A DNA stretch of 64,000 bases from Thermotoga maritima MSB8 (GTDB lineage: Bacteria > Thermotogota > Thermotogae > Thermotogales > Thermotogaceae), in the NCBI RefSeq assembly GCF_000008545.1, contig NC_000853.1:1130465-1194464 (forward strand), written 5' to 3'. Positions 44,068 through 46,296 of this stretch are shown here, one piece after another (the first letter of the stretch is position 1; every line of letters starts with the position of its first letter). Under the pieces are notes generated by a model that saw nothing but the letters and a program-made list of their open reading frames with translations, did no database searches and was not told where the DNA came from. Both the position numbers and the translations under genes were made by a program.

Positions 44068-45408
44068 TCAACTCAAGAAGCTGTGCACCACGTAGAAATA
44101 TATCATGATGCCTGTCACGTCGACGATCGTGGTGAGAAGAGGCCCTGCCATGAAGGCCGGGTCGATTTTGAAAATACGGGCGATGAACGGAAGCAGCGCT
44201 CCCATGATGTTCGCGTAAAGAATCAACACGAGCAAGGCCGTTGCTACGGCGAAATTCAGTGTGGGATCAGAAGAGATCAGAAAAGCCCTCAGGTAGAGAA
44301 CACCCGCAAGAATCAAACCCAAGGTGGAACCTATCAGAGATTCCCTCAACAGAACCTTCCACCAGTCTTTCAAACTTATCTCGTTCAGTGTGAATCCTCT
44401 TATCATGAGTGCAGATATCTGCGCTCCTGTGTTACCCGCAGAACCTATCATTGTCGGTATGAAAGCTGCTATGATCGGTATTGAGGCGAGAAATTTCTCG
44501 TAGCTTGATATGATGTTCCCGTTGACGCTCTCGAGGAGAAGGAGTACCACAAGCCATGGAGATCTTTTGAGGATGAGTTTCCACGCGGGAGTGTGAAAAT
44601 AAGACGTGTACGTAGCACTCATTGAGGCCATCTTCTGTATGTCTTCCGTTGCCTCTTCTTCGATGACGTCAACGAGATCGTCGAAAGTGATCACACCTAT
44701 CAATCTCTCTTCGCTGTCAACCACCGGTAGTATGATCAGGTCGTACTTCTTCATGAGTTCTGCCGCGAGTTCCTGGTCATCGATGGCGTGAACAAAAACA
44801 GGATCTTTGTTCATGATTTCTGATACCTTCTGATCGGGATCGGCAACTATCAGGTCTCTGAGTTCAACGGTTCCCTTGAGCTTTCTCGTTCTATCTATCA
44901 CCATGAGAGAGTAGATATTCTCTTTTTTCTTTCCTTCTTTTCTCACCTTTTCCAGCGCTTCTCTGACGGTCATATCCTCGAAAAGCTCTACGTATTCCGT
45001 AGTGGCGAGTCTTGCCGCAGAATCTTCAGGATAATTCAGGATGTAAAGAAGTTCCTCCCTTTCCTGTGGAGGAAGGTACGAAAGGAGTTTTTTCACCACG
45101 TTTGCGGGCATCTCTTCGAGTAGTTCCACTCTGTCGTCCGGATCCATCGATTCGAAGATCTCTTTCAGGCGTTCCTCTCTGAAAAGCTTTATGAGTTCCA
45201 GCTGATCGTCGGGTTCGAGTTCACTGAACACTTCAGCAGCTTTATCTTTGGGAAGGAGCCTGAAAACAACCACTTTCAGGTCGGGCGGGAGCTTTTCGAT
45301 CATCTCTTTCACATCGGCGGGATCCTGCTGTTCGAGAACCCTTTTGAGCGTCTTGAAGTCTCCTTTTTCGATCAATTCCTGAAGATCGATCTCTACCTTG
45401 ATCTTCAT
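44068..45408 (-). CDS. mgtE: magnesium transporter MgtE
   Basis: This is a 446-residue Mg2+ channel/transporter with an N-terminal superhelical domain of repeats such as LEPDDQLELIKLFREE and MDPDDRVELLEEMPAN (about 1-130), a CBS pair (about 135-260) that senses cytoplasmic Mg2+, and five membrane helices (about 275-446) with the pore region MIGSAGNTGAQISALM. ATG at 45408 follows AGGAGGTGTGAAA. The frame stays open to 45486, but no ribosome site fits and a separate small reading frame occupies that leader. Confidence 0.95.
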   Translation of the reverse strand: MKIKVEIDLQELIEKGDFKTLKRVLEQQDPADVKEMIEKLPPDLKVVVFRLLPKDKAAEVFSELEPDDQLELIKLFREERLKEIFESMDPDDRVELLEEMPANVVKKLLSYLPPQEREELLYILNYPEDSAARLATTEYVELFEDMTVREALEKVRKEGKKKENIYSLMVIDRTRKLKGTVELRDLIVADPDQKVSEIMNKDPVFVHAIDDQELAAELMKKYDLIILPVVDSEERLIGVITFDDLVDVIEEEATEDIQKMASMSATYTSYFHTPAWKLILKRSPWLVVLLLLESVNGNIISSYEKFLASIPIIAAFIPTMIGSAGNTGAQISALMIRGFTLNEISLKDWWKVLLRESLIGSTLGLILAGVLYLRAFLISSDPTLNFAVATALLVLILYANIMGALLPFIARIFKIDPAFMAGPLLTTIVDVTGIMIYFYVVHSFLS

Positions 45409-45433
45409 TTTCACACCTCCTCGGACCGCTTTT

Positions 45434-45460
45434 TTACGGAGGAAGACTGGTGCTTTCCAC
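45434..45460 (-). CDS. candidate leader peptide upstream of mgtE (MESTSLPP)
   Basis: An eight-codon frame, GTG start at 45460 and TAA stop at 45434-45436, has a strong ribosome site (GGGAGGTGA, nine-base spacing). It encodes MESTSLPP, ending Pro-Pro-stop, and sits 25 bp before mgtE. The CCTCC of its Leu-Pro-Pro codons (45442-45438) can pair with the GGAGG of the mgtE ribosome site (45420-45416). Whether it is translated is not shown; the sequence layout resembles leader-peptide control as known for enterobacterial Mg2+ transporter genes. Confidence 0.45.
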   Translation of the reverse strand: MESTSLPP

Positions 45461-45498
45461 TTAGAAATCACCTCCCGAAAAAGCATCTGCGTAGAACT

Positions 45499-45507
45499 AT
45501 TCTAACA
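45499..45507 (-). promoter_or_regulatory. extended -10 promoter for mgtE
   Basis: On the minus strand this reads TGTTAGAAT, an extended -10 (TGnTAGAAT). The predicted transcript would start near 45492, giving a leader of about 84 nt containing the small reading frame. Confidence 0.5.
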
Positions 45508-45565
45508 TCACACCGGAAGAAACACCAGTACAGAAAGAAAAATTTTTCAACGAACACATTCCTTC

Positions 45566-45595
45566 TTCAACGTTAATTTCCGAAAAGAGTATAAT
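45566..45595 (+). promoter_or_regulatory. promoter of the UPF0173 hydrolase unit
   Basis: TTCAAC (45566-45571), an 18-bp spacer and TATAAT (45590-45595). The predicted start near 45602 excludes the ATG at 45601 and supports the ATG at 45616. Confidence 0.65.
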
Positions 45596-45615
45596 CTAAA
45601 ATGGGAGGTGGTAAC

Positions 45616-46296
45616 ATGAAAGTCACATTCTTAGGACACGCCGTGGTGCTGATAGAGGGAAAGAAAAACATCATCATCGATCCTTTCATTTCAGGGAATC
45701 CCGTCTGTCCCGTAAAGCTGGAGGGACTTCCAAAGATCGATTACATACTCGTGACACACGGACACGGTGATCATCTCGGTGATGCCGTGGAAATAGCGAA
45801 GAAAAACGATGCCACGGTGATATCCAACTACGAAATCTGCCATTATCTCGGAAAAAAGGGTGTGAAGACCCATGCCATGCACATCGGTGGAAGCTATCTC
45901 TTCGACTTCGGAAGGGTGAAGATGACACCTGCCGTTCATGGCTCCGGAATTCTCGATGGTGACAGTATGATCTACGGAGGGAATCCCAGTGGTTTTCTCA
46001 TCACAATTGAGGGAAAGAAGATATACCACGCAGGAGACACCGGTTTAACCAGGGAGATGGAACTTCTCGCTGAGGAGAACGTGGATGTTGCGTTTCTTCC
46101 GATCGGTGGAAATTTCGTCATGGACGTGGAGGACGCCGTGAGGGCGGCAGTGATGATAAAACCGAAGAAGGTTGTTCCCATGCACTACGGAACCTGGGAA
46201 CTCATCTTTGCGGATGTAGAGCTGTTCAAGAAAAAGGTCGAGGAAAAGGGTGTTGAATGTGTGATTCTTGAGCCGGGAGAATCATTAGAATTGTGA
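45616..46296 (+). CDS. UPF0173 metal-dependent hydrolase (metallo-beta-lactamase fold)
   Basis: This is a 226-residue metallo-beta-lactamase-fold protein. It has the metal motif [12 protein letters not shown] (about residues 51-62), [10 protein letters not shown] for the bridging Asp, and [10 protein letters not shown] near the end for the last His. The UPF0173 family is widespread and its substrate is unknown to me. ATG at 45616 follows GGGAGGTGG. The GGDEF gene follows after 12 bp. Confidence 0.92.

Follow-up and report, generated by a model that had tools for sequence, protein, structure and literature searches.

A conserved Pro-Pro-stop leader peptide ahead of mgtE or corA in Thermotogota, a possible ribosome-based Mg2+ sensor

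We observed that a very short open reading frame ending in Pro-Pro-stop precedes the Mg2+ channel gene mgtE in Thermotoga maritima and in most of its relatives with a close MgtE, and that leaders of the same type stand ahead of corA in other members of the phylum. We regard it as nearly certain that the conserved peptide exists and that it is linked to Mg2+ transport. The comparison of loci shows, at the level of predicted peptides, that Mg2+ transporter genes across the phylum (mgtE or corA) share a kind of leader that is short, rich in Ser, acidic in its first residues and closed by Pro-Pro-stop. From these sequence features, pausing of the ribosome at Pro-Pro is probably the working principle of the leader, and the paused ribosome may occlude the start of the transporter gene, which would then be off during the pause.

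The leader frame at mgtE and its conservation

The window analyzed here is a stretch of 64,000 nucleotides (bases 1130465-1194464) of the complete 1,860,725-bp genome of T. maritima. Read along the minus strand, the order at mgtE is GGGAGGTGA (45476-45468), TTTCTAA, the leader ORF (45460-45434, with its stop codon TAA at 45436-45434), AGGAGGTG (45421-45414) and the mgtE ATG at 45408, with 25 nt from the leader stop to the mgtE start. The divergent neighbor of mgtE is a metal-dependent hydrolase-like gene starting at about 45601. The features are the following:

45499 to 45507, minus strand: TGTTAGAAT, resembling an extended -10 box, in the putative promoter of mgtE, from sequence reading
45468 to 45476, minus strand: leader ribosome-binding site GGGAGGTGA; such a site also lies ahead of all 40 mgtE leaders
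45434 to 45460, minus strand: leader ORF GTG GAA AGC ACC AGT CTT CCT CCG TAA (MESTSLPP-stop, 8 codons), conserved at 40 of the 46 loci with a close MgtE
45434 to 45442, minus strand: Pro-Pro-stop (CCT CCG TAA), the proposed parking site of the ribosome; Pro-Pro invariant in 40 of 40 mgtE leaders, codons varying
45414 to 45421, minus strand: mgtE ribosome-binding site AGGAGGTG, 12 nt past the leader stop, right against the edge of a ribosome that would park on Pro-Pro-stop
44068 to 45408, minus strand: mgtE, the presumed target, encoding a 446-aa Mg2+ channel with MgtE_N, CBS and MgtE domains

The small frame MESTSLPP with its ribosome site had been proposed by an earlier sequence-only reading and is confirmed here, with GTG and not ATG as its start codon. 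The position of TGTTAGAAT would place the start of the transcript near 45492 and give an mgtE leader of about 84 nt. Comparison of upstream regions revealed GTTAGAAT at the same place in loci of the genus Thermotoga. A simple sigma-70 consensus scan did not call the -10-like box (45507-45499) as a promoter, and for this reason we treat the start site as presumptive.

We then examined the upstream regions of 46 Thermotogota loci whose MgtE is close (identity of about 48-100%). The leader was found at 40 of them and was absent at six. The two prolines are invariant as amino acids in the 40 leaders and are encoded by all four codons (CCA, CCG, CCT and CCC); start codons (18 GTG, 12 ATG and 10 TTG) and stop codons (27 TAA, 9 TAG and 4 TGA) vary as well. 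The leaders measure 8-18 aa and differ in length by whole codons only. In-frame pN/pS ranges from 0.08 to 0.35, against 0.56 or more in the other two frames, and in the three largest mgtE groups the leader DNA is 85-90% identical, against 37-55% for the spacer between the leader and the SD. The low in-frame pN/pS, the whole-codon steps in length and the conservation of the leader relative to its divergent spacer all indicate, at the sequence level, that the leader is a peptide under selection and not a conserved RNA sequence. Frame-disrupting indels or the loss of the start, the prolines or the stop in relatives would have spoken against the frame; it survived this check. Selection and conservation thus support the earlier claim that mgtE loci share a leader, predicted to be translated, with Pro-Pro-stop as its invariant feature.

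The leaders fall into recognizable families. Those of the Thermotoga type (MESTSLPP, MEGTSLPP and MESNNLPP) are accompanied by a second, TTG-started family (MESTSSSFSLPP, MEGTSNSLSLPP), a third family (MEYPSYSSNKPP, MDYPSCCNPLNKPP, MEYPSYSCNSSNSTTKPP) and more distant members (MEDYPGSRPP, MGEDYPSSRPP, MEDPLSSYSNKPP, MDNCDSSKQKPP, MDSTGSFFEFSDLPP). The residue preceding Pro-Pro is Leu, Lys, Gln or Arg. We did not find a Pro-Pro leader led by an SD at the mgtE relatives sampled from Bacteroidota, Bosea and Gemmatimonadota, and the feature so far appears limited to Thermotogota.

Where one genome carries two close mgtE copies, only one of them bears the leader (L074 and L075 against L072 and L076). 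A second type of mgtE, found in two Petrotogales-like genomes (L089 and L091), is preceded by different leaders, MEEDLPDSYKIIMNKEDKNHFYKWFFIF and MSNEDSVPDSSCIYKGVLIISFKGFDFYL, which are acidic with an early Pro, like MgtL; at these two loci, long inverted repeats pair the leader's own ribosome site (GGAGGTGATTA/TAATCATCTCC).

It is highly improbable that the leader frame is accidental, with the segment being either an in-frame N-terminal extension of mgtE starting at ATG 45486 or a conserved non-coding RNA. Such an extension is indeed open in T. maritima, but within the genus the long form is open only in two genomes (G000 and G037), and the extension was rejected on these grounds. The purifying selection is moreover specific to the leader frame, the length changes by steps of 3 nt, and Rfam scans of the 64-kb window and of sixteen loci returned no match, the M-box riboswitch included. 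We searched the whole 1.86-Mb genome of T. maritima for the pattern GGAGG-N4-12-NTG-N9-39-CCNCCN-TRR and obtained nine matches, among which only the mgtE leader is in frame with a true stop. Being the sole in-frame SD-led Pro-Pro-stop mini-ORF of the genome and recurring at 40 of the 46 close mgtE loci, the leader is not a product of chance. The phage records compared yielded no match.

The same type of leader ahead of corA

CorA and MgtE are non-homologous Mg2+ transporters. We sought the leader pattern in Thermotogota genomes without a close mgtE and then traced CorA homologues across the phylum. In a Thermosipho-like genome without a close mgtE, GGAGGTG...ATG MESYGSYSDEPLPRPP-stop lies directly ahead of corA. 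At this locus (L107), the leader occupies positions 555-605 and the downstream gene (631-1557) is a corA by Pfam (E 1.7e-51). An intact Pro-Pro-stop leader was identified at 24 corA loci of the phylum (MSSESYTSSYSDEPLPRPP, MDYFSCSEDPLSRPP, MDSSSSSKDVVSLPP, MELYSSEGDLPP and others), with pN/pS of 0.21 and 0.07 in two groups; eight corA loci have none. The presence of the same leader type ahead of a non-homologous gene indicates that the leader goes with Mg2+ uptake and not with MgtE as such. Its assignment to Mg2+ transport, first made from the mgtE locus, holds and is strengthened by corA.

None of the genomes examined carries the leader on both mgtE and corA. Close MgtE and a 308-aa subtype of CorA are nearly mutually exclusive between Thermotogota genomes; one genome (G034) has both the close MgtE and the CorA types, with the leader on neither.

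The signature of the peptide was computed on 42 distinct peptides, mgtE and corA leaders together, with 31 proteins of the window as reference. Across both genes, the leaders span 8-19 residues. An acidic residue occurs within positions 2-4 in 96-100% of the distinct leaders, against 35% of the window proteins, and Ser makes up 28-31% of the leaders, against 8% of the window proteins. The leaders are nearly devoid of basic residues until just before the end, where Pro-Pro-stop follows. An early Pro is present in some leaders only (MEYPS, MEDYP).

The layout differs in Kosmotogaceae-like genomes, where at least 80 nt separate the end of the corA leader from corA. At the Mesotoga-type loci (L137-L147), the leader (MELYSSESEPPL or ending in EPPP-stop) often closes with PPL-stop and not PP-stop. 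Behind it comes a 16-pair stem in which the ribosome site and the start codon of corA are hidden. This stem is kept in nearly all of nine sequences, with few two-sided changes, and its base starts a few bases past the leader stop. At L144, the leader (MDIYSSESAMPN) has lost Pro-Pro.

Ribosome geometry and competing mechanisms

The front edge of a paused ribosome is taken at +15. At the 58 compact loci that we measured, the leader stop lies 11-33 nt ahead of the transporter start, and footprint arithmetic indicates that a ribosome whose P site holds the last Pro would cover part of the transporter GGAGG in 22 loci and would end at most 5 nt from it in 27 others. The remaining nine loci present a clearance of up to 12 nt, where a second ribosome may fit beside the parked one. 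In the tightest arrangements, the stop codon directly abuts the SD (TGA and GGAGGG at L083; TAA and AGGAGG at L082). With the leader stop this close to the transporter SD, parked and initiating ribosomes would usually exclude each other.

We propose that the strong ribosome site of the leader would keep it loaded with ribosomes, which would pause at Pro-Pro-stop, peptidyl-Pro-Pro being a poor substrate for release. Lying on or against the transporter ribosome site, the paused ribosome would block initiation and hold the transporter off. At low Mg2+, ribosomes carrying a short acidic/Pro nascent chain would lose stability and fall off, as with enteric MgtL, or clear faster, and their loss would free the transporter site and allow the transporter to be made. 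The pauses would be tempered by EF-P, which 97 of the 103 Thermotogota genomes encode. In enteric bacteria, translation of the leader represses mgtA and corA, and acidic and Pro residues make this translation Mg2+-dependent, low Mg2+ impairing it (PMC11552253, PMC11282234); the polarity proposed here is the same. We place occlusion of the transporter start, as well as the whole chain of steps, at a probability of roughly 45%. The broader picture is put forward more tentatively: a phylum-wide Mg2+ sensor in thermophiles that would consist only of a mini-peptide and the geometry of the ribosome, would involve almost no RNA structure and would be carried by either mgtE or corA.

The sequence-only reading had proposed the opposite polarity, in which a ribosome stalled at Pro-Pro-stop would hold CCTCC away from the ribosome site of mgtE, and low Mg2+ or low EF-P activity would switch mgtE on. 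In Thermotoga, CCTCC (45442-45438) is physically able to pair with the mgtE GGAGG, as had been claimed, and one matched change (CCCCC/GGGAGG) is found at L005 and L006. However, the proline codons vary freely, all four being used, and CCTCC is not conserved among mgtE leaders. When we randomized each locus 100 times (synonymous and spacer changes) and evaluated SD sequestration at 37 and 70 C, the leader paired with the ribosome site of mgtE no more strongly than the randomized controls did (mean z of 0.09 and -0.11, respectively), and folding of the leader region is weak at 80 C. The proposed RNA switch is not supported by these comparisons. The claim that stalling opens mgtE is also ill-suited to 19 of the 40 mgtE loci, where the stalled ribosome would sit on part of the very SD that it is meant to expose. 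This part of the claim keeps some ground at Mesotoga-type corA: the stem base lies just past the leader stop, a paused ribosome could loosen the stem, and pausing could there open the start instead of blocking it. Overall, we consider an opening role of stalling unlikely. The stop-to-SD geometry, together with an SD pairing that is neither conserved nor above controls, leads us to favor occlusion.

Termination-reinitiation is another unlikely explanation, in which ribosomes that finish the leader would restart at mgtE and the slow release at Pro-Pro would set the flow into mgtE. The distance from stop to start (11-33 nt) and the strong ribosome site in between would suit it, but simple coupling needs neither a conserved Pro-Pro nor an acidic, Ser-rich peptide, and the ribosome site of mgtE seems strong enough to initiate on its own. 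Less probable still is transcription attenuation of the kind known from enteric mgtA and corA, in which translation of the leader would control termination, either Rho-dependent or intrinsic, ahead of mgtE or in its early part. This is how enteric leader peptides on Mg2+ transporter genes operate, but a search of 45380-45620 revealed no terminator-like site, and the 25 nt between leader and mgtE leave little room for a rut site.

Relation to known leader peptides and riboswitches

If occlusion of this kind is confirmed, ribosome-based Mg2+ sensing would reach beyond enteric bacteria into a deep-branching phylum of thermophiles and would be used for MgtE, in an unusually small and structure-poor case of nascent-chain pausing at termination. 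Because the same peptide signature is found on mgtE and corA, we argue that the ribosome, and not the transporter, would be the sensor. It would then become possible to test whether the stability of the ribosome or termination at Pro-Pro is what Mg2+ acts on.

The closest known systems are the enteric leaders MgtL and CorL (PMC11282234, PMC11552253), which likewise place a short leader peptide ahead of a Mg2+ transporter gene and are two leaders on unrelated transporters. In Thermotogota, a short ORF, presumably translated, lies 5' of such a gene at 40 mgtE and 24 corA loci. The early acidic and Pro residues of MgtL are matched, the early Pro in some leaders only; MESTSLPP of Thermotoga has none, unlike the EPDP of MgtL. 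The non-ATG start of corL (UUG) also has its counterpart. In contrast, no conserved Pro-Pro-stop is reported for MgtL or CorL in the two papers cited, whereas the Thermotogota leaders keep a diproline by the stop, as amino acids and not as codons, with the Mesotoga-type PPL-stop as the exception. The enteric leaders act on mgtA and corA within long 5' regions that form alternative stems and involve Rho termination, whereas in Thermotogota the 5' region is short, the leader ORF takes up almost all of it, and the targets are mgtE or corA. The M-box (ykoK) riboswitch, as on B. subtilis mgtE (PMC12288461), resembles our proposal in controlling mgtE by Mg2+ from the 5' side, but it is an aptamer RNA acting by transcription attenuation without a peptide, and no Rfam family matches the window or the sixteen loci scanned.

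A Pro-rich C terminus encoded ahead of a regulated gene is also a feature of CutF, which responds to copper by opening a stem over cutO (PMC9973294), and of the RAPP-type arrest peptides (PMC10951233), the RPP of some Thermotogota leaders being reminiscent of RAPP. These known examples are longer proteins connected with export or localization, whereas the Thermotogota leaders are 8-19 aa long, are not exported and stand beside a metal importer. In UL4 uORF2, a terminal diproline stalls termination whatever its codons and represses the downstream ORF (PMC9648851). Its indifference to codons is shared by the leaders described here, but it involves eukaryotic scanning ribosomes and a 22-codon peptide with no link to Mg2+, and we use it as a working analogy and not as a sign of kinship. 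In the open-access literature, we found no publication describing a Pro-Pro-stop leader of mgtE or corA. The leader kind is already known as MgtL/CorL-like, and its Pro-Pro-stop form on mgtE and corA appears to be new.
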